Program-made: the position numbers and the translations under genes
From: Acidilobaceae archaeon
GTDB taxonomy: Archaea > Thermoproteota > Thermoprotei_A > Sulfolobales > Acidilobaceae
NCBI GenBank assembly: GCA_027051095.1
Contig: JALUAM010000007.1
Coordinates: forward strand, 23,720 to 87,719
Direction of reading: 5' to 3'
DNA: 64,000 nucleotides
The notes under the pieces: model-generated
Seen by the model: only the letters and a program-made list of their open reading frames with translations
The model's database searches: none
What the model was told of the DNA's origin: nothing
Shown: positions 9,738 to 53,925 of the stretch, piece after piece
How positions within the stretch are numbered: position 1 is the stretch's first letter
Layout of the letters: every line of letters starts with the position of its first letter

Positions 9738-10763
9738 TTGCCCCGCCCGCCTGTCAGGCTTGAGGGTGTATGGGCGGGATATGAGGGTAGGGTAGTGCTG
9801 AGGGGGGTTGATATAGAGTTCCCCGGGGGAGGCATAACTGCTGTCTTGGGCCCGAGCGGCTGCGGCAAGACGACGCTCCTCAAGGTGATAGCCGGGCTGG
9901 TCGAGGTTCTCAGGGGTAGGGTCTTCTTCGGAGACGTGGAAGTAACGAGGCTTCCCCCGGAGAGAAGGAACGTGGGCATGGTATTCCAGGACCTAGCCTT
10001 GTTCCCCCACATGACCGTCTTTGAGAACGTGGCATTCGGCCTTAGGGTTAGAGGGGTGGGGGGCAGTGAGCTTAAAAGGAGGGTTATGGAGGCGCTTGAG
10101 CTGGTAGGATTGGATCCCGTGGAGTTTGCGAGTAGGAGGGTGACGGAGCTTAGCGGTGGCCAGCAGCAGAGAGTTGCGCTGGCCAGAGCCCTAGTTATAG
10201 AGCCAGAGGTGCTCCTGCTGGACGAGCCGCTAGCCCACCTGGACTACAAGATAAGGCAGAGGCTGGTGTGGGAGCTTAGGAGGCTCCAGAGGAGGCTGGG
10301 AGTGACGACGATATACGTTACCCACGACCAGTGGGAGGCCATGGAGCTTGCTGACATGCTGGCAGTTATGAGGGATGGGGGCGTAGTTCAGTTTGGCAGG
10401 CCGGAGGAGGTGTACGAAAACCCTGCGGACGAGTTCGTAGCAACGTTCTTTGGCGACGCTAATATAATGCCGGCTAGGCTCCTCGGCGAGGGCGAGGGGC
10501 TGGTAGCGGTTAGGCCGGAGGATGTGATGCCCCTTCCTCCCGGCAGGGAGGCCGGCCCCGGCTTCTACGTTATTGAGGGCTACGTGGAGGATAGGGTCTT
10601 TCAGGGCCCCCTCGTGCGTTTCGAGGTCAGAGTAGATGGCGTCGTGGTGAGGAGCCTGGTGCCGCGCAGGATTGCGAGGGGCATGCCCGATAGGGGCCCG
10701 GTGCGCCTGGTCATACCTAAGGGCTCGGTTAAGAGGCTTGGCGGGCGGGGTGCCCGGGGGTAG
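9738..10763 (+). CDS. Polyamine-type ABC transporter ATPase
   Basis: GPSGCGKTT, LSGGQQQRVALARAL, LLLDEPLAHLD. Confidence 0.92.
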   Translation: MPRPPVRLEGVWAGYEGRVVLRGVDIEFPGGGITAVLGPSGCGKTTLLKVIAGLVEVLRGRVFFGDVEVTRLPPERRNVGMVFQDLALFPHMTVFENVAFGLRVRGVGGSELKRRVMEALELVGLDPVEFASRRVTELSGGQQQRVALARALVIEPEVLLLDEPLAHLDYKIRQRLVWELRRLQRRLGVTTIYVTHDQWEAMELADMLAVMRDGGVVQFGRPEEVYENPADEFVATFFGDANIMPARLLGEGEGLVAVRPEDVMPLPPGREAGPGFYVIEGYVEDRVFQGPLVRFEVRVDGVVVRSLVPRRIARGMPDRGPVRLVIPKGSVKRLGGRGARG

Positions 10764-11527
10764 TGAACCCTTCGAGGCTTTTAGCGGCACCCCTAATCCT
10801 CTACCTGATAGTATTCTTTTACGCGCCTCTCCTCTACATAGCGCTTGTAGGCGCCTCAATCGAGGGTTTCCCTAGGTCCTATATAGAGGCGGTCTCTAGG
10901 CCGGAGTTCCATGTGTTCTACATTAAGGGGGCCGCAGCTGCAACTATTGCAACGTTAATGGCTATCATTCTCAGCGTGCCTGTAGCCTTCTACGCTGCAT
11001 ACTATGCGCGCCGGATTGAGAGGGCCCTCATAGTAGTGGCAATGGTGTCTACGTTCTGGGTCGACGTGCTTCTCAGGGCTCTCTCGCTCAAGCTGCTATT
11101 CCAGGCTATAGGCGTGAGTCCTGGCTTCTGGCCCATGGTTGTGGGCCTGGCCTACGAGGTCCTACCCATAGTATTCATAGCGTCGTACCTGGGAGCGTCA
11201 CAGGCGCCCAGGGAGCTGATCGACGCTGCGCGGACGCTCGGAGCAGGCCCCCTCCAGGCCTTCGCGAGAGTCGCGCTACCTATATCGGCTCCGTGGATAG
11301 CGGCGGGAGCGGCCGCGTCATTCGTATACTCTTTCGCTGACTACGCTGTGCCCAGCCTCCTGGGCGGGACTACCGGCTTCACGGTAGGCAACCTGATCTA
11401 CACGTTGATATTGGAGGGCGACAGGTGGGGTGTTGGGAGTGCTGTGGCGGTGATGCTGACATTGGTATCCGCAGCCGGCGCTGCCCTGCTCTTCGGGAGG
11501 TTATATCGCATTGAGGTTGGACGCTAA
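10763..11527 (+). CDS. Polyamine-type ABC permease (PotB-like)
   Basis: EAA-type loop ELIDAARTLGAGPLQAFARVALPIS; TM helices; operon. Confidence 0.85.
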   Translation: MNPSRLLAAPLILYLIVFFYAPLLYIALVGASIEGFPRSYIEAVSRPEFHVFYIKGAAAATIATLMAIILSVPVAFYAAYYARRIERALIVVAMVSTFWVDVLLRALSLKLLFQAIGVSPGFWPMVVGLAYEVLPIVFIASYLGASQAPRELIDAARTLGAGPLQAFARVALPISAPWIAAGAAASFVYSFADYAVPSLLGGTTGFTVGNLIYTLILEGDRWGVGSAVAVMLTLVSAAGAALLFGRLYRIEVGR

Positions 11528-42622: not shown

Positions 42623-42761
42623 CGTTCAATACTCCCACGGTAAGCCCATCAATAACTATCATAGCCTCTTGAAGACGGATTGGGTGCCTCATGTGCAAAA
42701 CTCATCGTCAGTAATCGGAGAAGCTAAGGTAGACGGTGTTTGGGACACGTCTAGTCTGTAT

Positions 42762-43541
42762 ATGAAGAAGTATGGTGCGGGCGAGAGGATTCTATGGACC
42801 GTAGATGTGACGCTGAGCTTCGGCGGTGTTAGGGCTCTAGACAGGGTGTCAATCGTAGTCAGGAAGGGCGAGCTGCTGGGCCTGATAGGCCCTAACGGAG
42901 CCGGCAAGACATCGCTCCTAAACGTGATAAGCGGCGTTTACAAGCCTGAGAAGGGGCGCGTCTTCTTTAAGGGCATAGATATTAGTAACTTGAAGCCTCA
43001 CGAGAGGGCTAGGCTGGGCATAGCTAGGACGTTCCAGCACGGGGAGATGTTTCACAGTATGACGGTCCTGGAGACTATAATGCTGAGGCTTCACCCCTGG
43101 CATAGAGGCTCCATAGTAGAGGCTGCCCTCTGGGCCTTCAGGGCTAAGAGATGGGAGGTGGAGGCTAGGGAGAAGGCGGAGTACGTCATAGACTTGCTGG
43201 ACCTCCACGAGTATAGGCATATGCCTGTAGGGGCCCTTCCGCCCGGTGTGCAGAAGAAAGTAGACCTGGCAGCCGCGATGGTTCAGGACCCCGAGGTCAT
43301 ATTGATGGACGAGCCCATGGCTGGCCTGTCGCGTGAGGAGAAGGACGATATAGTGAGGGCTATTATAGAGATCAGGGAGACACGCGGGACTACCATGGTA
43401 TTAGTCGAGCACGACTTAGAGGTTGTGACGGATATCTGCGACCGCGTAGTCGTGATGGATAGAGGCAAGGTGATCTTCGACGGGCCGCCGCATGAGGCGG
43501 TCAAGGACGAAGCCGTGATAACGGCATACATAGGGGGGTGA
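42762..43541 (+). CDS. Liv-type ABC transporter ATPase (LivG-like)
   Basis: GPNGAGKTSLLNVISG, GVQKKVDLAAAMVQDPEVILMDEPMAGLS; ATG at 42762 preferred over upstream TTG at 42669. Confidence 0.88.
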   Translation: MKKYGAGERILWTVDVTLSFGGVRALDRVSIVVRKGELLGLIGPNGAGKTSLLNVISGVYKPEKGRVFFKGIDISNLKPHERARLGIARTFQHGEMFHSMTVLETIMLRLHPWHRGSIVEAALWAFRAKRWEVEAREKAEYVIDLLDLHEYRHMPVGALPPGVQKKVDLAAAMVQDPEVILMDEPMAGLSREEKDDIVRAIIEIRETRGTTMVLVEHDLEVVTDICDRVVVMDRGKVIFDGPPHEAVKDEAVITAYIGG

Positions 43542-43548
43542 TACATTC

Positions 43549-45495
43549 TTGAACGTGAGGGTGGTTGCTAGGGAGAAGCCTTGGGGCGAGGTCGAGTATG
43601 AGTCAACGTTCCCCTGGCTGCTTTCGTGGAGAGCTTCAAGGTCGCCTCACGGCGTGGCGTTCAGGTGGAAGCGCTATGGTGTGTGGAGGCGCTATACATG
43701 GCTAGACTACTACGAGAGAGTAGTGTACGCTTCTCTCGCATTAAACGAGCTAGGACTCGAAGCGGGCGACACGGCCGCTTTCATAACGTTCAACAGGCCT
43801 GCCTGGCTGGTCTACGAGCTCGGCGCCCAAATGCTGGGAGCTAAGACAGTGGGTATATATAGGGATAGCCTGAGTGACGAGGTAGGCTACGTGCTGGATA
43901 GGAGTGACGCTTCATTCGTTCTTGTGGAGGGCCAGGAGCAGCTAGACAGGGTCCTCGAGTCGGGCGTTGAGGTAGAGAAGATAATAGTTGATGAGGCGAA
44001 GGGCCTTCACCAGTACAGGGATAAGCTTGGATCCAAGATAGTAACCTTCGGAGACCTGCTAGTCATGGGCAAGAAGTTGTACAGGGATGGAGGCGAATCC
44101 AAAGTCAAAAAGTTCATGGACGCGCTTGAGCCTGATATGGTCTGCGGCCTCTTCACCACCAGCGGCACCACGGGGCCTCCCAAGCTAGCTATGCTGACGT
44201 TCAAGAGCATGCTGGCAATGGCCTATCAGCTCAACAAAGTAGACCCTGTAGAGGAGACCTGGGAGTACGTGTCGTTCCTGCCCACAGCTTGGATAGGGGA
44301 GCAAATGATGAGCATATCGCTGCACCTGCTAGCAGGCTTTAGGGTCAACTTCCCGGAGACTCCATGGACTATGTGGAGGGATTTCAGAGAGATAGCTCCG
44401 CACTTCCTATTCTCTCCCCCGAGAGTCTGGGAAAGGATAGCGAAGGATATTATGGCGAGAGTAGAGGATGCGGATCCCCTTAAGAGGCTGGCCTTTAAGA
44501 TTGCATACCGCATAGGCATAGAGGCAGCTAAGAGGAGGCTCGTGAAGGGTAGGAGGGAGCCGCCGCTACCGTGGAAATTGCTGGTATACCTAGCCTACTG
44601 GCTGGCGCTTAGGGCGGTCCTGGACAAGACGGGTCTCAAGAGGGTCGTTAGGGCTTACACGGGTGGGGCGATGATAGGCGAGGACTACGTGCTATTCTAC
44701 CATGCTATAGGCGTTAACTTGAAGCAGATTTATGGGCAGACAGAGGTTGCCGGTATAGCCGTTGTGCACCCGGATGAAGATGTCAGGCCCGACACTGTAG
44801 GTAAGCCCCTGCCTCTCACCGAGGTGAAGATAGCCGAGGACGGGGAAATATTGATAAGGAGCCCCGCGGTCATGAAAGGCTACTACAAGAACGAGGAGGC
44901 GACACAGAAGACCATAGTAGACGGCTGGCTACGCACAGGCGATGTAGGCGTTCTCACCGAGGATGGCCACCTTAAAGTGCTGGATAGGGCGAAGGAGATA
45001 ATAAAGCTGGCCGATGGAACCGTCGTGGCGCCTCAGGTCATCCAGAACAAGTTAAAGTTCAGCCCCTACATAGGCGAGGCCGCTATAATAGGCTCCGGCA
45101 GGCCATTCCTCTCAGCGCTGATAAACATAGACTTCGAAATAGTGTCTAGGTGGGCCGAGAGAAGGAGGATAACGTTCACGAGCTACTCGGACCTGTCCCA
45201 GAAGCCTGAGGTCCTGCAGCTCTTGAAGAGGGAGGTGAAGAGGGTGAATTCGATGTTGCCCGAGAAGGAGAGGATAAAAAGGTTTGTGAGCCTCTTCAAA
45301 GAGTTCCACCCTGACGACGGCGAGATGACAAGGACTAGGAAGCTCAGGAGAGCGGTCATAGAGAAGCGGTACGCGGGACTAATAGAAGCAATATACCGGG
45401 GCGAAGAGGAATACGACCTAACCGTCACTATGAGGCTGGAAGACGGCAGGCTAGTAGAGGTGACTAGGAGGGTTAAGATAGTCGACGTGGAGTAG
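43549..45495 (+). CDS. Long-chain-type acyl-CoA synthetase embedded in Liv operon
   Basis: TTSGTTGPPKLAMLTFKS, IYGQTEVAG, GWLRTGDVG, DRAKEIIKLADG. Confidence 0.9.
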   Translation: MNVRVVAREKPWGEVEYESTFPWLLSWRASRSPHGVAFRWKRYGVWRRYTWLDYYERVVYASLALNELGLEAGDTAAFITFNRPAWLVYELGAQMLGAKTVGIYRDSLSDEVGYVLDRSDASFVLVEGQEQLDRVLESGVEVEKIIVDEAKGLHQYRDKLGSKIVTFGDLLVMGKKLYRDGGESKVKKFMDALEPDMVCGLFTTSGTTGPPKLAMLTFKSMLAMAYQLNKVDPVEETWEYVSFLPTAWIGEQMMSISLHLLAGFRVNFPETPWTMWRDFREIAPHFLFSPPRVWERIAKDIMARVEDADPLKRLAFKIAYRIGIEAAKRRLVKGRREPPLPWKLLVYLAYWLALRAVLDKTGLKRVVRAYTGGAMIGEDYVLFYHAIGVNLKQIYGQTEVAGIAVVHPDEDVRPDTVGKPLPLTEVKIAEDGEILIRSPAVMKGYYKNEEATQKTIVDGWLRTGDVGVLTEDGHLKVLDRAKEIIKLADGTVVAPQVIQNKLKFSPYIGEAAIIGSGRPFLSALINIDFEIVSRWAERRRITFTSYSDLSQKPEVLQLLKREVKRVNSMLPEKERIKRFVSLFKEFHPDDGEMTRTRKLRRAVIEKRYAGLIEAIYRGEEEYDLTVTMRLEDGRLVEVTRRVKIVDVE

Positions 45496-45505
45496 GGTGT
45501 AAGCT

Positions 45506-46384
45506 GTGAGCTTGGAGGAATGGTCTAACCTAGTCTTCCAGGGCATACTCTTGGGGGTTCTTTACTCGCTTGTGGCCATGGGATACAACATAGTTTACAG
45601 GGTTAACAAGTCTATTAACTTCGCGGTGCCTCAGGTAGTCCTCTTAGCGGCCTACGTCTCGCTTATTGTCGCAGTGGCTGTAGGCAGCTTCATAGCGGCT
45701 ATTATAGCAGCCGTGCTGGTATCCATCGCAGTTAGCATGGCGCTCGAGAGGACAGTCGCAAGGCCCCTGCTAGGGAGGCCTCCCGTGGCTCTCATAGGGG
45801 CGACTCTAGGCGTGTTCTACGCTCTTAAGGGGGTAGTGTTGATCGTGGGTGGAAGCCGGGTAGCAACGATACCCATAGACATAGACTATTACGAAGTGGG
45901 GCCTCTGGATATAGCTACTAATGATGTTATCTCTCTTGCGGGGGCGCTGCCCGTATTCGCGAGCGTAGTGATCCTTCACAGGAAGACTAGGTTTGGAGCG
46001 GCTATGAGGGCTGTTGCTGAGGACGCTGAAGGAGCCGCGGCTTACGGCCTCCCCGTGAAGAGGCTAATGCTGGCTGGATGGGCTCTCGCGGGCCTTGTGG
46101 GAGGCCTGGGTAGCATATTGCTAGCCATTAAGACGCAGGTATCACCCGAGCTAGAGTACTTCGCGATAAGGGCCCTGGCCGCGAGCCTGATAGCCGGCTT
46201 AGACAGCCTGGGCGGCGTCATAGTGGGCGGCATAGCCTTGGGCCTCGCAGAGCAGATTGGAAGCAAGATCCTAGATCCTTACCTGCCCGGGATAGGCAGG
46301 GATATAGCATTCTTGGTCCTCCTCATAGTCCTCTTCGTCAGGCCCTACGGGCTCTTCGGCTCTGAGAGGATAGAGAGGGTGTGA
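45506..46384 (+). CDS. Liv-type ABC permease (LivH-like)
   Basis: LVAMGYNIVYRVNKSINFA, TRFGAAMRAVAEDAEGAAAYGLPVKRL. Confidence 0.9.
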   Translation: MSLEEWSNLVFQGILLGVLYSLVAMGYNIVYRVNKSINFAVPQVVLLAAYVSLIVAVAVGSFIAAIIAAVLVSIAVSMALERTVARPLLGRPPVALIGATLGVFYALKGVVLIVGGSRVATIPIDIDYYEVGPLDIATNDVISLAGALPVFASVVILHRKTRFGAAMRAVAEDAEGAAAYGLPVKRLMLAGWALAGLVGGLGSILLAIKTQVSPELEYFAIRALAASLIAGLDSLGGVIVGGIALGLAEQIGSKILDPYLPGIGRDIAFLVLLIVLFVRPYGLFGSERIERV

Positions 46385-47427
46385 GACTAATGCCGGCGGG
46401 AGTGTTTAAGGAGACTTACGAGGCCGATATGGCATTCATAAGGTATCCTATCCATAAGGCTGCGTTGATAGCGGCTATCATAGCTCTCCTAGCGGCGCCT
46501 GCCGTCCTAGACAGGTACTACCTCAGCCTGGCGACGACCGCCTTGATATTCTGGGTAGCCGTCATGGGCTTGAACATCACGGTGGGCCTGGCGGGCCAGA
46601 TATCGCTAGCCCACGCGGCGCTGATGGGTGTGGGCGCTTACACAGTAGCCCATGCAGCGCTGAAGCTGGGGCTAAACGCTGTCCTGGCAGTACCCCTTGC
46701 AGGCATCACTGCTATGGCTATAAGCGTGCTGCTAAGCCTTCCGAGCTTCAAGCTGAAAGAGTACTATCTGGCTATGGCTAGCCTCGCGGCCCAGCTGCTG
46801 CTGGAGTATGCGTTTTCCAGGATAGACCCAGATCAGTATACGCCGGTCCCCCCTGAGGCCAAGGTCCTAGCAGGAGTAGATTTAAACAACCCCGTGAACC
46901 TATACTACTTTACCGCTCTCGTAGCAGTCCTCATGGCAGTGATTGCTGCCAACATAGCGAGGAGTACCTATGGGAGGGCTATGAAGGCTGTGAGGGACAA
47001 CGACGTGGCAGCCTCTATAGTGGGCGTAGACGTGCCCCTGACTAAGGCCCTAGCATTTGCCATAGGAGGCTTCTACGCCGGAGTAGCTGGGGGCCTCTAC
47101 GCTATCTATAGCGTGGGCATAGGCTGGGAGGCCTTCACGCTGATAGTGTCGATCGAGCTGCTAGGCATGGTACTAGTAGGAGGCCCCGGCAGGGTTGTAT
47201 GGGGGAGCCTCCTAGGGGTCCTCACCCTGAGGACGGGGTGGACACTGTTAGAGAGCCAGCTTACACCGCTACTCTCGGCGCTGGGAATGACTGCCTACGC
47301 ATCGGCTTTCAAGTACATAGTGCTGGGCGCGGTAATCACCGCAACCATTATACTAGAGCCCGAGGGCCTAATAGCTGTATTGAGGAGGGTCAAGGAGTAC
47401 TTCAGGCTCTGGCCTTACAGCTACTAG
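46381..47427 (+). CDS. Liv-type ABC permease (LivM-like)
   Basis: GLNITVGLAGQISLAHAALMGVGAYTVA, STYGRAMKAVRDNDVAASIVGVDVPL. Confidence 0.9.
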   Translation: MRLMPAGVFKETYEADMAFIRYPIHKAALIAAIIALLAAPAVLDRYYLSLATTALIFWVAVMGLNITVGLAGQISLAHAALMGVGAYTVAHAALKLGLNAVLAVPLAGITAMAISVLLSLPSFKLKEYYLAMASLAAQLLLEYAFSRIDPDQYTPVPPEAKVLAGVDLNNPVNLYYFTALVAVLMAVIAANIARSTYGRAMKAVRDNDVAASIVGVDVPLTKALAFAIGGFYAGVAGGLYAIYSVGIGWEAFTLIVSIELLGMVLVGGPGRVVWGSLLGVLTLRTGWTLLESQLTPLLSALGMTAYASAFKYIVLGAVITATIILEPEGLIAVLRRVKEYFRLWPYSY

Positions 47428-47487
47428 GCGTCTAGAACCCCTCACCAAGAAATTCTTAAACGTTTTGATGGGTAAGCTAGTGGAGCC

Positions 47488-48774
47488 ATGGAGGGAATTG
47501 AGATGGCGCGGTCGAACGCTCTCTATATAGGACTCGCGGCGATAGTGGTCATAATTGTGGCGGCGGCCGCCCTATTCTTCATGGGTAGGGGTAGCGAGGA
47601 GACTGCGGGCGAAGAGGAAGTTATAACGATTAATGTGGGCCTTCTAGTCGACGAAACAGGGCCCACAAGCGACGTAGGCATCGGCTATGCGCGTGGCGCT
47701 GAAGCGGCCTTCAAGTACTTCAACGAGAAGGGGATCTACACTAAGGACGGGGTAAGGGTTGAAATAAACTATATCAAGAGGGACTACGCCTACAACCCCA
47801 CACAGGCTGAAGAGTTCTACAGAGAGTTCAGGGATAGATATAATGTTATAGCTGTGATAGGGTGGGGCACTGCCGATACCGAAAAGCTATCAGACCAGGT
47901 TGCCAGGGACAAGATAGTCTATATCTCAGCGAGCTATTCTGCTAAGCTGGTAGTCAAGCCCTACAACTTCTTCCCGGCCCCCGACTACAGCACTCAGGCC
48001 TGCGCAGGGCTGGCTTGGCTCCGGGAGGAGTATGGTGGCGGCAAGATAGCGCTGGCCTATGACAGTAAGGTCGCCTATAGCAGGAGCCCGATACCAGCTA
48101 TAAAGGAGGCCTCCAAGATTCTAGGCCTTGAAGTAGTGGGCGACTTCGACCTGCCGTTGAGGGCCTCGGAGGCCGACGCTGAGAGAGTCGCCAGGGAGAT
48201 AAAGGCTGCTGGCGCAGACTTCGTGTGGTGCGGCAATACTATAAGCAGCTGCAGCTTGCTGGCCAGGGCGCTTGCCAAGGTCGGGGCGGACGTGGTGATG
48301 CTAGTGAACGTGTGGGGCTTCGACGAGAGGAGCCCTGATCTAGTGGGGGAGGAGGCCTATGGGATGGTGGCCGGCATAAGCCCGTTCATATACCCCGTCT
48401 TCGCTTCGGGTATCGAAGGCTTCAACGTGATATACGAGGCGGCAGAGCTTGCCGGGATACCTAGAGAGGAAGTTACACTGAGGTTCGTGCAGGGCTTCGT
48501 AAACGTGTGGCTACTCGTTAAGGCGATAGAGAGTGTTACCTCCGAGGACCTTCTCAGCAGGGGAGGCGAAGCGTTAAAGGAGATACTAGAATCCCAGACC
48601 TTCGACTTCGGAGGTATAACGGCTGCGCCTGTGAAATTCCAGCCAGGCTTCCACGTGCCCTATAAAGATGTGTACATAGTTATGCTGGCCGAAGACGGTA
48701 GCCTGGTACTGGAGGGGAAGTATAGCGCGCCCAAGGGTATAGACTGCGCCAGGGTCACCATCGAGCGGGGCTGA
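47488..48774 (+). CDS. Liv-type ABC transporter substrate-binding protein
   Basis: N-terminal TM then periplasmic-binding fold INVGLLVDETGPTSDVGIGYARGAEAAFKYFNEKG; upstream TATA-like ATTCTTAAACG. Confidence 0.88.
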   Translation: MEGIEMARSNALYIGLAAIVVIIVAAAALFFMGRGSEETAGEEEVITINVGLLVDETGPTSDVGIGYARGAEAAFKYFNEKGIYTKDGVRVEINYIKRDYAYNPTQAEEFYREFRDRYNVIAVIGWGTADTEKLSDQVARDKIVYISASYSAKLVVKPYNFFPAPDYSTQACAGLAWLREEYGGGKIALAYDSKVAYSRSPIPAIKEASKILGLEVVGDFDLPLRASEADAERVAREIKAAGADFVWCGNTISSCSLLARALAKVGADVVMLVNVWGFDERSPDLVGEEAYGMVAGISPFIYPVFASGIEGFNVIYEAAELAGIPREEVTLRFVQGFVNVWLLVKAIESVTSEDLLSRGGEALKEILESQTFDFGGITAAPVKFQPGFHVPYKDVYIVMLAEDGSLVLEGKYSAPKGIDCARVTIERG

Positions 48775-48788
48775 GAAGGGTGTAGGTC

Positions 48789-49574
48789 TTGCCGCCGCTG
48801 CTCTCCGTGGCAAACGCGGAGATTATGTACCACCCCTACATACTAGTCATTAAAAACCTTAGCTTGAAGGTTGAGGAGGGAACAATAACCTGTATTCTGG
48901 GGCCCAACGGCGCGGGCAAGTCTACGCTGCTCAAGGCGATATCGGGGGTTATAAAATATGAGAGGGGCCGGGTGACGCGGGGCAGCATAAATTATAGGGG
49001 CGATGATATAACCAACAGGGACCCTGACGAGATAGCCAAGATGGGGATCATATATGTTATGGAGGGGCGCAGGATATTCAGGGAGCTCACAGTAAAGGAG
49101 AACCTTGACGCTGTGGCTTACGTTACGGGCTCCGGCCCCGACGAGGTCAAAGCAGTGCTGGACTACTTCCCGAGGCTTAAGGAAAGACTGGAGGAGAGGG
49201 CAGGCAACCTAAGCGGTGGAGAGCAGCAGATGCTTGCTATAGCGTTAGCTCTCCTCCATAAGCCCCGCCTTCTGCTCCTCGACGAGCCGAGCCTGGGTCT
49301 GGCACCAAAAATAGTCTCCCTGCTGTACTCAACAATAAGGCAGCTCCACGACGAGGAAGGCATAACGATACTGCTAGCAGAGCAGAACGCTAGGAAGGCG
49401 CTTGAAATATCGGATTACGGTTACGTGATGGAGAATGGGAAGATAGTCATGGAGGGGCCCGCAGACGTTTTAAGGGAGGACAAGGACATAAAGGAGTTCT
49501 ATCTGGGAATGGGCAGGGGCAGGACTAGCTATCGCAACGTCAAATGGTATAGAAGGAAGAAGAGGTGGGTTTAA
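48789..49574 (+). CDS. Liv-type ABC transporter ATPase (LivF-like)
   Basis: GPNGAGKSTLLKAISG, LSGGEQQMLAIALALLHKPRLLLLDEPSLGLAP. Confidence 0.92.
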   Translation: MPPLLSVANAEIMYHPYILVIKNLSLKVEEGTITCILGPNGAGKSTLLKAISGVIKYERGRVTRGSINYRGDDITNRDPDEIAKMGIIYVMEGRRIFRELTVKENLDAVAYVTGSGPDEVKAVLDYFPRLKERLEERAGNLSGGEQQMLAIALALLHKPRLLLLDEPSLGLAPKIVSLLYSTIRQLHDEEGITILLAEQNARKALEISDYGYVMENGKIVMEGPADVLREDKDIKEFYLGMGRGRTSYRNVKWYRRKKRWV

Positions 49575-50532: not shown

Positions 50533-51684
50533 TTGAGAGTCGCCCTTGTCTCTATGGGGTGGAGCGGCTTTCGCCCCTCTGTCGAGGAGCTCAGCTTCAG
50601 GGAGATGATGTTCGAGGCGGCTATGAGGGCCTACGAGCAGGCGGGAATAGACCCCAGAAGGGACGTGGACGCCTTTATATCGTGCCAGGAGGACTTCTGG
50701 GAGGGCATAGCTATCACCGACGAGTTCGCGCCTGAGCCCATAGGTGGCGTCTTGAGGCCCACCCTCACGGTGGCCGGGGAATTCCTCCAGGGCCTCGCCC
50801 AGGCCTACATGATGGTCAAGACCGGCTACTTCGACGTAGTCGTTGTAGAGTCCCACGCGAAGCCTAGCGACGTTGAGTCTATGAGGGGCGTCTTTGAAAT
50901 GGCATTCGACCCGCTCTACCTGAGGCCTCTAAAGGCGCCTAACCCTCACTTCCTCGCAGGGCTTATGGCGTCTGCATTCATGGCTAGGAGCGGGGTTGAC
51001 AGGGAACACCTTGCCATGGTAGCTGTTAAGAACAAGTCTAACGGCCTCTACAACCCTAGGGCAAGCCATTCCGCCAGGATAACGCTAAGCGACGTCCTGG
51101 ACTCCGAGCCCGTCGTAGACCCCCTGACTAGATACGAGATAGCGCCTTTCAGCGACGCCGCTGTAGTCGCTGTTGTGGCCTCGGAGGAGGCGGCTAGGAG
51201 GCTCACCGACACGCCTGTCTGGATAGACGGCGTGGGGTGGTCTACTGAGGCGGGAACAGGGTCCATGGCTTGGCACGACCTGGGCAGCATGCCGAGCATG
51301 AGGATGGCTGCCACGATGGCCGCGAGCATGGCTGGCATCTCGAGTATAATGAGGGATACTAGCTTCGCGGAGGTAGAGGATAGGTATAGCTTCGCAGAGC
51401 TCATGGCAGCGGAGGAGGCGCTCACTGGCGACGCCCTGGAGGCGGCTAGGATGCTGGAGAACGGGGACTTCGATAGAGACGGCTACTACCCCGTGAATCC
51501 GAGCGGGGGAAGCCTAGCAATGGGAGTCGCTTTCGAGGCGACCGGAGGCGCCAGGCTGTTAGAAGCCTATCTAAGGCTCCTCGGGGGCGGCGAGGAGGTC
51601 GAGGCGGGCGCTGAGAGGGCCCTAGTCCTCTCGTGGAGGGGGATACCAACTAGGACAAGCATGGCAGTCATACTCTCATTGTAG
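50533..51684 (+). CDS. Thiolase-superfamily protein lacking catalytic Cys and His
   Basis: Thiolase fold segments (VKNKSNGLYNPRA, NPSGGSLAMGVAFEATGG) but no CASG Cys and GHPxGATG replaced by GVAFEATG. Confidence 0.82.
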   Translation: MRVALVSMGWSGFRPSVEELSFREMMFEAAMRAYEQAGIDPRRDVDAFISCQEDFWEGIAITDEFAPEPIGGVLRPTLTVAGEFLQGLAQAYMMVKTGYFDVVVVESHAKPSDVESMRGVFEMAFDPLYLRPLKAPNPHFLAGLMASAFMARSGVDREHLAMVAVKNKSNGLYNPRASHSARITLSDVLDSEPVVDPLTRYEIAPFSDAAVVAVVASEEAARRLTDTPVWIDGVGWSTEAGTGSMAWHDLGSMPSMRMAATMAASMAGISSIMRDTSFAEVEDRYSFAELMAAEEALTGDALEAARMLENGDFDRDGYYPVNPSGGSLAMGVAFEATGGARLLEAYLRLLGGGEEVEAGAERALVLSWRGIPTRTSMAVILSL

Positions 51685-51688
51685 GGGG

Positions 51689-52882
51689 GTGGTGGCCGTG
51701 GTTGCGAGGCCCAACATACATGTTAAGTCCAAGGTCGCCATCGTAGGGGCCGGCTTAACCCTGTTCAGAAGGAGGATGCTAGAGACTCCGAGGGAGCTGG
51801 CATGGGAGGCGGCCAGGATGGCGCTGGAGCAGGCAGGCCTCACCCTGAGAGACATAGACTGTGTGGTTGTGGGCAGCGCTCCCGACGCCTTCGACGGTGT
51901 CCACATGAAGGGTGAGTACCTAGCAGACGGGGCGGGCGGCATAGGGAGGCCGACGGTAAGAGTGTTCGTGGGGGGCGGCACGGGGGTTTTCGTGCCGATA
52001 GCTGCCTGGTGGCACGTGGCTAGCGGCCTCTGTAGGAGCGTACTGGCAGTAGCCGAGGAGAAGATGAGCCCTGCTCACCCCCATCCTCAGGGCGTCTTCG
52101 CCTACATCTGGGATCCAATCCTTGAGAGACCTCTCGGCCCGAACCTGATATGGATATTCGCGTTGGAGATGAGGCGCTACATGTATAAGTGCAATGTGCC
52201 CAAGGAGACTATAGCAAAGGTGTCGGTGAAGAATAAGAGGAATGCGCTCGATCACCCCGCCGCCCAGGCCGCCGCGAAGATAACCGTCGAGGACGTGCTG
52301 AAGAGTGAGGTGCTCGTGTGGCCCGTCCAAAGGCTCGACATAAGCCCCGTGAGTGATGGGGCGGCGGCGCTGGTAATGGTTAACGAGAACGAGGCTAGGA
52401 GGGTCACAGACTCGCCGGTTTGGGTTGAGGGAGTCGGGTGGACGCTGGATAACACGCACTGGTACAACAGGGAGCTGGCCTATCCGAGGTATGTGAACTA
52501 CGCGGCTAGGATGGCGTATAAAATGGCCGGTATTGAGAGGCCGTGGAAGGAGATAGACGTGGCGGAGCCCTACGATCCCTTCGACTATAAGGAGCTACAC
52601 CACATAGAGGGGTTGATGCTGGCTAGGCGCTGCGAGGCGCCTAAGCTGCTGGAGGAGGGCTGGTTCGACAGGGACGGGGAGCTGCCTACGAGCCCCAGCG
52701 GAGGCCTCCTCGGCGTGGGCAACCCGATAGCCGCCGCGGGCCTGATGAAGGTCGCAGAGATATTCTGGCAGCTTAGGTACGAGGCTGGAGCCAGGCAGGT
52801 GAAGAAGCCGGTCCACAAGGGCGTGGCCCAGGCTTGGGGAGACCTTATGCAGGCGGCTACAGTGGTAGTCCTGGGCGTGTAG
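51689..52882 (+). CDS. Thiolase-superfamily protein lacking catalytic Cys and His
   Basis: VSVKNKRNALDHPAAQ, SPSGGLLGVGNPIAAAGLMKV (GHPIGATG replaced by GNPIAAAG); VRVFVGGGTGVF at the nucleophile position. Confidence 0.85.
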   Translation: MVAVVARPNIHVKSKVAIVGAGLTLFRRRMLETPRELAWEAARMALEQAGLTLRDIDCVVVGSAPDAFDGVHMKGEYLADGAGGIGRPTVRVFVGGGTGVFVPIAAWWHVASGLCRSVLAVAEEKMSPAHPHPQGVFAYIWDPILERPLGPNLIWIFALEMRRYMYKCNVPKETIAKVSVKNKRNALDHPAAQAAAKITVEDVLKSEVLVWPVQRLDISPVSDGAAALVMVNENEARRVTDSPVWVEGVGWTLDNTHWYNRELAYPRYVNYAARMAYKMAGIERPWKEIDVAEPYDPFDYKELHHIEGLMLARRCEAPKLLEEGWFDRDGELPTSPSGGLLGVGNPIAAAGLMKVAEIFWQLRYEAGARQVKKPVHKGVAQAWGDLMQAATVVVLGV

Positions 52883-52896
52883 GGGGGTGCGCGGGG

Positions 52897-53436
52897 ATGG
52901 GCGAGCCTAGGCTGCCCGGCACCTACCTAAAGGAGAAGGAGATGTACCAGCTGCCGGGCATAGTGGAGCATAGGCCCGACGCTAAGTACTCATTCTCTGC
53001 GGGCCAGGCCGTGAGCAGGTTCCTGGAGGGGCTCAAGCAGGGGAGGATACTGGGTAAGAGGTGTCCGCGCTGCGGCAGGGTCTACGTGCCGCCCAGGAGC
53101 TACTGCGAGTACTGCTTCGCCCCCACGGCCGAATGGGTCGAGGTGAGTGGGGAAGGCGAGGTTAACACGGCAGTGGTAAGCTACATATCCACGTTCAGGG
53201 AGAGGCTCGAGGAGCCGGAGATAATAGCTGTTATAAGGTTATACGCTCCGGGCTACACGGGCAAGAAAGACGAGTACGAGTTCCCAGGCATATTCCATAA
53301 GCTGTGCGGCGTGAAGCCAGAAGACGTCATGTCGGGAAGGGTTATAGGGATGAGGGTTAGGCCGCGCTGGAAGCCGCCGGAGAGGAGGGTGGGCAGCATA
53401 ACAGATATAGAATGCTTCGAGCCCGTGGAGGGGTGA
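52897..53436 (+). CDS. DUF35/OB-fold protein with zinc ribbon
   Basis: GKRCPRCGRVYVPPRSYCEYC (CxxC...CxxC) followed by OB-like strand region. Confidence 0.88.
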   Translation: MGEPRLPGTYLKEKEMYQLPGIVEHRPDAKYSFSAGQAVSRFLEGLKQGRILGKRCPRCGRVYVPPRSYCEYCFAPTAEWVEVSGEGEVNTAVVSYISTFRERLEEPEIIAVIRLYAPGYTGKKDEYEFPGIFHKLCGVKPEDVMSGRVIGMRVRPRWKPPERRVGSITDIECFEPVEG

Positions 53437-53442
53437 TAAGTC

Positions 53443-53925
53443 ATGGCGTGGAGCATGTGGTGGAAGGAGGCTAGGAGGATCTACAAGTTCCCGGGTAAGA
53501 TGGAAGTCGAAAAATATGTATACACGCCAGGCCTTCACGGCCTGGAGGCTGCGAGGAAGCTGAAAGAGGAGGGCAAGTTCGTAGGCACCAAATGCGGCGA
53601 CACGATATACTATCCACCGACAACCTTCTGCCCAGACTTCAGCGAGGGGGGGCTAGCAGAGGTTAGGGGCCCGTGGAGGGTTGCAGCCTTCACGGTAATA
53701 AGGGAGACCATGGAGGGGGAGAGGCTTGAGAAGCCTATAGTCGTAGCGCTGATCGTGCCCGACGACGCTGTGGGCGGTATAATACACTATGTTGACGTAG
53801 ACCCGGATAAAATCTATATCGGCATGGAGGTCGAGCCCGTCCTAAAGCCCAGAGAGGAGAGAAAGGGCAACCCCGTAGAGGACATAGTGCACTTCAAGCC
53901 GAAGATCGAGGAAGGAGAGGGCTAA
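53443..53925 (+). CDS. DUF35/OB-fold paralogue with degenerate zinc ribbon
   Basis: GTKCGDTIYYPPTTFCPDF retains only one Cys per knuckle; OB-like C-terminus. Confidence 0.75.
   Translation: MAWSMWWKEARRIYKFPGKMEVEKYVYTPGLHGLEAARKLKEEGKFVGTKCGDTIYYPPTTFCPDFSEGGLAEVRGPWRVAAFTVIRETMEGERLEKPIVVALIVPDDAVGGIIHYVDVDPDKIYIGMEVEPVLKPREERKGNPVEDIVHFKPKIEEGEG

Follow-up and report, generated by a model that had tools for sequence, protein, structure and literature searches.

A conserved archaeal four-gene module of cysteine-less thiolase-fold and DUF35 proteins as a candidate acyl-CoA retro-aldolase

The window considered here, a stretch of 64,000 nucleotides from an Acidilobaceae archaeon (contig JALUAM010000007.1 of assembly GCA_027051095.1, positions 23,720 to 87,719), contains four consecutive genes, named here A, B, D1 and D2, the first two encoding thiolase-fold proteins and the last two DUF35 proteins. 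A and B are currently annotated as 'thiolase domain-containing protein' only, a label that invites a thiolase reading in archaeal pathway reconstructions, though both proteins lack the residues of thiolase chemistry. What, then, might such a pair do in the company of two DUF35 proteins? The answer that we favour with moderate confidence, on the basis of sequence comparison, is that A-B-D1-D2 form a hetero-oligomeric acyl-coenzyme A (CoA) retro-aldolase with B as the catalytic subunit, the archaeal counterpart of the Ltp4-Ltp3-tandem DUF35 set of actinobacteria, in which Ltp3 and Ltp4 are required for the breakdown of branched plant-sterol side chains. The genes and the key codons of B are the following.

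50533-51684, plus strand: gene A, 383 residues, thiolase-fold protein without catalytic Cys/His (NF004722/PRK06066)
51689-52882, plus strand: gene B, 397 residues, thiolase-fold protein (NF004721/PRK06065)
51974-51976, plus strand: codon of B Gly96, at the slot of the thiolase nucleophile Cys
52571-52573, plus strand: codon of B Tyr295 (YDPF), at the slot of Ltp2 Tyr294 and Sal Tyr302
52721-52723, plus strand: codon of B Asn345 (GNP), at the slot of the GHP His, Ltp2 Tyr344 and Sal Gln352
52897-53436, plus strand: gene D1, DUF35 protein (zf-ChsH2 and OB fold) with an intact four-Cys zinc ribbon
53443-53925, plus strand: gene D2, 160 residues, DUF35 protein with a degenerate zinc ribbon

The genes are separated by 4 bases (A/B), 14 bases (B/D1, counted from the ATG at 52897) and 6 bases (D1/D2). 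D1 probably starts at this ATG, which yields a protein of 179 residues, the length of its orthologs, and not at the TTG at 52834 that overlaps B. A matches NF004722/PRK06066 with 574 bits (cut-off 516) and B matches NF004721/PRK06065 with 787 bits (cut-off 455), while zf-ChsH2 and OB_ChsH2_C are both matched by D1 and by D2 above the Pfam cut-offs. The motifs quoted in a sequence-only reading of the window, which had proposed a retro-aldolase complex, all lie in these open reading frames where that reading had placed them.

The active sites were compared over alignments of 117 archaeal sequences for B and 113 for A, the slots being set by the acetoacetyl-CoA thiolase 6esq and, for Sal and Ltp2, by alignments of 9myr and 6ok1. 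In B, the slot of the nucleophilic Cys is taken by Gly96 (Gly in 117/117), that of the His of the HDCF motif by Tyr295, within EPYDPF (Tyr in 116/117), and that of the GHP His by Asn345, within GNP (Asn in 117/117). The sole B found with His in place of Tyr295 (HDPF, at locus L129) retains the Gly and the GNP. Pro297, the Trp383-Gly384-Asp385 stretch and Gln388 are also fixed, and no conserved Cys was found in the active-site columns of B among these sequences. As a whole, B has 141 of its 397 positions fixed in 97% or more of the sequences, active-site loops included, versus 26 in A, and the mean pairwise identity is 71% for B versus 48% for A.

The catalytic slots of A are occupied quite differently. 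The nucleophile slot is variable (Ala, Ser or Thr; Cys in just 3/113), as is that of the GHP His (Val332 in the window), and the HDCF His slot mostly holds Asp or Glu. A has just one well conserved Cys, Cys51 (94/113), which lies outside the active-site columns, in another loop. Conservation is found instead in an acidic motif, SCQEDFWEG, and in a fixed acidic loop comprising Glu53, Asp54 and Glu64; position 83, a near-invariant Asp, is Glu in the window. A was ruled out as an active subunit, having no conserved Tyr, His or Cys in the catalytic slots. From these alignments, B is probably the catalytic subunit and A probably a non-catalytic or accessory one. Neither protein shows the Cys nucleophile, the HDCF motif and the GHP His that define SCP2-type thiolases. 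The loss of the nucleophilic Cys and of the GHP His from both proteins, claimed in the sequence-only reading, was thus borne out, and the alignment also points to an aldolase-type active site in B, with Tyr at the base slot and Gly replacing Cys. A further claim, that both proteins carry a Tyr near the HDCF segment, stands in part, but a catalytic Tyr in both subunits is not supported: Tyr295 of B is at the His position, while Tyr285 of A (within 'EDRY') takes the place of the Phe of the motif, does not align with the YDPF Tyr, and is not conserved (Tyr in 59 and Phe in 48 of 113 sequences).

Two enzymes of the same fold, Sal and Ltp2, allow these residues to be interpreted. The catalytic base is, by mutagenesis, Tyr302 in Sal and Tyr294 in Ltp2, and the acid is Cys304 in Sal or Tyr344 in Ltp2 (PMC12329534). 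Like the module, the Ltp2-ChsH2 (6ok1) and Sal-Shy (9myr) complexes combine a thiolase fold having Gly at the Cys slot with a DUF35 partner, a role for which D1 and D2, adjoining B, are the candidates at the gene level. Their Tyr base lies in a Y-D-x-F/Y motif, as in B, whereas A does not share this Tyr; the corresponding motifs are YDCY and GQS in Sal, YDHF and AYI in Ltp2, and YDPF and GNP in B. However, the thiolase-fold part of Ltp2 and Sal is homodimeric and the DUF35 domain is borne by a hydratase, while the DUF35 genes of the module stand alone. No match to a MaoC hydratase was found in the window's genome, an incomplete assembly (1.43 Mb in 76 contigs, 82.6% complete), or in six of eight others. 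The archaeal complex of acetoacetyl-CoA thiolase, HMG-CoA synthase and DUF35 protein (AACT/HMGS/DUF35) shares the fold, the DUF35 partner and the archaeal origin of the module, but it retains the catalytic Cys and His, performs Claisen chemistry and includes an HMG-CoA synthase subunit. Ltp2, the precedent offered in the sequence-only reading, is not supported as the closest one: B scores 262 bits against PRK08313 (Ltp3-type) versus 113 against PRK07855, which we take to be the Ltp2-type family, and it lacks the second catalytic residue.

The closest relatives of the module came to light in actinobacterial operons, found by searching plasmid records with B. Streptomyces clavuligerus has, in this order, genes for a tandem DUF35 protein, a PRK07937 protein (550 bits; Ltp4-type) and a PRK08313 protein (713 bits). 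Tsukamurella has the same trio, accompanied by genes for a CoA ligase, a crotonase, a P450 and a 'steroid 3-ketoacyl-CoA thiolase'; its tandem DUF35 protein lacks the zinc Cys in the first half, echoing the intact/degenerate pair of the window. Two different Cys-less thiolase-fold genes side by side, accompanied by two DUF35 units, are therefore common to the archaeal module and to the Ltp3-Ltp4-tandem DUF35 set (of Rv3523-Rv3522-Rv3521 type), as is, in the window, a DUF35 unit devoid of zinc Cys, and the composition is not purely archaeal. The likeness extends to the residues. Ltp3-type proteins have Gly, YVPF, SNP or ANP, and a GKAPDxFEGV loop where B has Gly, YDPF, GNP and GSAPDAFDGV, so that B carries the Gly/Y-x-P-F/N-P and GxAPDxFEG signature of an Ltp3-like subunit. 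Moreover, B, the Ltp3-type proteins and a Rhodococcus qingshengii relative have in common P65, P285, P297, N345, A382 and Q388, all of which are absent from the canonical and Sal-like rows of the alignment. The phylogenetic tree unites A, B and the Ltp3- and Ltp4-type proteins (support 97/91), apart from canonical thiolases and from a Sal/Ltp2-like protein.

There are differences as well. The DUF35 units are separate downstream genes in archaea and a single tandem protein encoded upstream in actinobacteria, B and Ltp3-type proteins are about 35% identical, no steroid genes lie near the archaeal module, and host and substrate differ. The R. qingshengii relative comes from plasmid pLP1 (L189:527-11345), from an operon that encodes two acyl-CoA dehydrogenases, two MaoC hydratases and a DUF35 protein. 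This operon, which also holds a 304-residue truncated Cys-less thiolase relative and an Ltp3-like protein, resembles in layout the igr operon, which ends with Ltp2. As for biological role, ltp3 is Rv3523 and ltp4 is Rv3522, with Rv3521 a conserved hypothetical protein (PMC6429209), and another report (PMC6273163, citing Wilbrink 2012) describes the aldol-lyases Ltp3 and Ltp4 as essential for branched, and not for straight, sterol side chains.

How general is the arrangement among archaea? A lies directly upstream of B in 122 of 130 B-carrying loci, two DUF35 genes follow in 100, and all four genes in the order A-B-DUF35-DUF35 are found in 95; many of the B loci with an incomplete module are at contig ends or at places where simple open reading frame choice failed. 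Since 95 loci retain the four genes in order, the arrangement is far beyond chance, and the order, the conservation of which had been put forward for checking in the sequence-only reading, is ancient. The module is spread over Thermoproteota, Bathyarchaeia and Archaeoglobales, with A present in 81 of 397 Thermoproteota genomes (E < 1e-100) and homologues of B (65-96% identity) in Sulfolobales, Thermoproteales, Bathyarchaeia, Geothermarchaeota, Geoglobus and Archaeoglobus; the nearest named match of B is from an Aeropyrum sp. metagenome-assembled genome (96%). The mirror-tree correlation of A and B is high (r 0.80, permutation maximum 0.08), which is no proof of contact between them because the common phylogeny of the organisms produces such a signal too. 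At one locus of an uncultured Thermoproteales (L098), B appears split into 70 and 308 residues, by either a sequence error or a real frameshift.

The two DUF35 proteins are unequal. The zinc ribbon of D1 is full in 112 of 117 orthologs, while among D2 orthologs it is full in 68, half in 6 and absent in 26. The zinc Cys were lost mainly in the window's own family, with retention of the OB domain, and most other lineages keep a full ribbon; the pairing of one intact with one degenerate ribbon, pointed out in the sequence-only reading, is therefore real in the window and not general across lineages. Among solved structures, SSO2064 of S. solfataricus (PDB 3irb), the founder structure of DUF35, is nearest to both D1 and D2. 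D2 is its ortholog: in a Sulfolobaceae genome (locus L070), genes B (9925-11151), D1 and D2 follow in order and D2, the fourth gene of the module, is identical to SSO2064 over 121/121 residues. SSO2064 retains the four zinc Cys, unlike D2 of the window. This orphan structure is hence now placed within a four-gene module.

AlphaFold2 models of B (pLDDT 85, pTM 0.88) and A (pLDDT 91, pTM 0.92) are thiolase folds. The PDB entries that resemble them most are archaeal and SCP2 thiolases, and further matches include Ltp2 (TMq 0.79 for B, 0.84 for A) and Sal (0.81 and 0.85). These predictions confirm the fold and do not discriminate between functions.

A mechanism can be proposed on these grounds. 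Briefly, a β-hydroxyacyl-CoA would arise through a CoA ligase, an acyl-CoA dehydrogenase and an enoyl-CoA hydratase, and its β-hydroxyl proton would be removed by Tyr295 of B; cleavage of the α-β C-C bond would then release an aldehyde or a ketone and leave an acyl-CoA enolate, which Asn345 and the backbone amides around Gly96 and Gly384 would hold until its protonation yields acetyl- or propionyl-CoA. D1 and D2 would shape the entrance for CoA and substrate, and A would act as the B-like partner in the dimer. Tyr295 is proposed as the base by homology, the A-B partnership from gene order, and the assembly, chemistry and direction of the complex are likewise read from sequence. As substrates, our guess would be acids with a β-carbon blocked for β-oxidation (methyl-branched or isoprenoid-type), because Ltp2- and Ltp3-type enzymes act on branched side chains.

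The surroundings of the module fit such a role. Neighbouring genes were grouped by single linkage over 57 loci, one representative of each cluster being identified, and clusters with acyl-CoA dehydrogenases and with ACS-type CoA ligases are each found, a few genes at most from the module, at about one third of these loci. Acyl-CoA dehydrogenases are present in 80/80 module-positive (A-carrying) genomes besides that of the window versus 85/316 negative ones, in a count that ignores relatedness. In several Bathyarchaeia, methylmalonyl-CoA mutase genes follow the module. Acyl-CoA dehydrogenase, CoA ligase and methylmalonyl-CoA mutase are consistent with acyl-CoA catabolism. The window's genome itself encodes methylmalonyl-CoA mutase, enoyl-CoA hydratases and a fused hydratase/3-hydroxyacyl-CoA dehydrogenase, and it has, apart from the module, an intact Cys/HDAF/GHP thiolase paired with a DUF35 gene; with these enzymes ordinary β-oxidation seems feasible, and the module would serve another purpose. 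A canonical thiolase (PRK06064) with its own DUF35 gene is divergent beside some Bathyarchaeia modules (L084:7943-9524, L094:10840-12412, L083:11976-13566, L079:10629-12371), indolepyruvate:ferredoxin oxidoreductase alpha and beta genes adjoin the module in some Sulfolobaceae genera (L070:13142-15549), and a crotonase gene is close to it at one Geoglobus locus.

Could the fold have been put to other uses? An ordinary β-ketothiolase or a PhlABC-like Friedel-Crafts acyltransferase, with a Cys supplied from elsewhere, would agree with the fold and with the DUF35 partnership seen in AACT/HMGS/DUF35, BbsAB and PhlABC. We regard this as very improbable: the active-site columns of B hold no conserved Cys, Cys51 of A is in a different loop, and the genome carries the separate canonical pair, of a kind that adjoins the module in several Bathyarchaeia. 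Such chemistry was rejected for want of an active-site Cys. Alternatively, A and B could be pseudo-enzymes that make up, with the DUF35 proteins, a complex for acyl-CoA binding or delivery with no C-C chemistry of its own, as their missing catalytic Cys and His might suggest; moreover, an acyl-CoA carrier role has been suggested for DUF35 proteins, SSO2064 included (PMC2954200), and Trf, also a DUF35 protein, functions in translation (PMC6996347). Yet a pure binder is not obviously in need of the invariant Tyr/Asn/Gln set common to Ltp3-type proteins, nor of 141 strongly conserved positions that include the active-site loops of B, and this explanation appears distinctly unlikely. Somewhat less so, albeit still unlikely, is a different non-covalent acyl-CoA chemistry, namely malonyl-type decarboxylation, synthetic aldol addition, or hydration/isomerisation. 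The Cys-less TbSLP (YDCF) decarboxylates malonyl-CoA, and the Bathyarchaeal methylmalonyl-CoA mutase and Sulfolobaceae indolepyruvate oxidoreductase neighbours suggest that the substrate may not be a β-oxidation intermediate. However, the TbSLP reaction is very slow, with a turnover of just 0.005 per s, and Sal is without decarboxylation activity (PMC12329534), while the linkage to acyl-CoA dehydrogenase and the kinship to Ltp3-type genes of steroid clusters point to catabolic C-C cleavage.

Several facts weigh against the retro-aldolase itself. Neither known acid is in place, B having Pro297 at the slot of Sal Cys304 and Asn345 at that of Ltp2 Tyr344, each in 117/117 sequences, and in the related neighbourhoods no hydratase is regularly linked to the module, unlike the case of Ltp2 and Sal. 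The parallel with actinobacteria has its own weak points: PRK08313 is equated with Ltp3 and PRK07937 with Ltp4 from names, lengths, gene order and steroid-cluster context, the evidence for Ltp3 and Ltp4 in the sources consulted is gene essentiality and not enzyme assays, and the tree test does no more than fail to reject the clades B+Ltp3 and A+Ltp4 (p-AU 0.30 and 0.40), the best tree joining A with B (77/72). Finally, neither an activity of archaeal members nor a function of the module was found in the literature searched, which covers few subscription journals. The retro-aldolase nevertheless remains our preferred reading. A bolder version of it, to which we give rather less than even credence, is a third catalytic design among thiolase-fold aldolases, in which an asymmetric A/B dimer with two unequal DUF35 proteins, having a Tyr base, Pro and Asn at the slots of the known acids and possibly an acid from another subunit's conserved acidic loop, would act on β-blocked acyl-CoAs (isoprenoid or derived from branched amino acids) across archaea.

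If the retro-aldolase proposal is true, current maps miss a retro-aldol step in the acyl-CoA catabolism of many Thermoproteota, Bathyarchaeia and Archaeoglobales, SSO2064 would gain a function, and the archaeal proteins would provide heat-stable models for Ltp3 and Ltp4, which are poorly characterised.

The sequence-only reading had further supposed that an upstream Liv transporter brings in the substrate. This part was abandoned, as no Liv transporter was found beside the module in related neighbourhoods, where transporter-type neighbours are rare and never adjacent. In the window, a complete Liv-type ABC transporter set enclosing an acyl-CoA ligase gene occupies positions 42669-49574, and a triosephosphate isomerase gene intervenes before the module.

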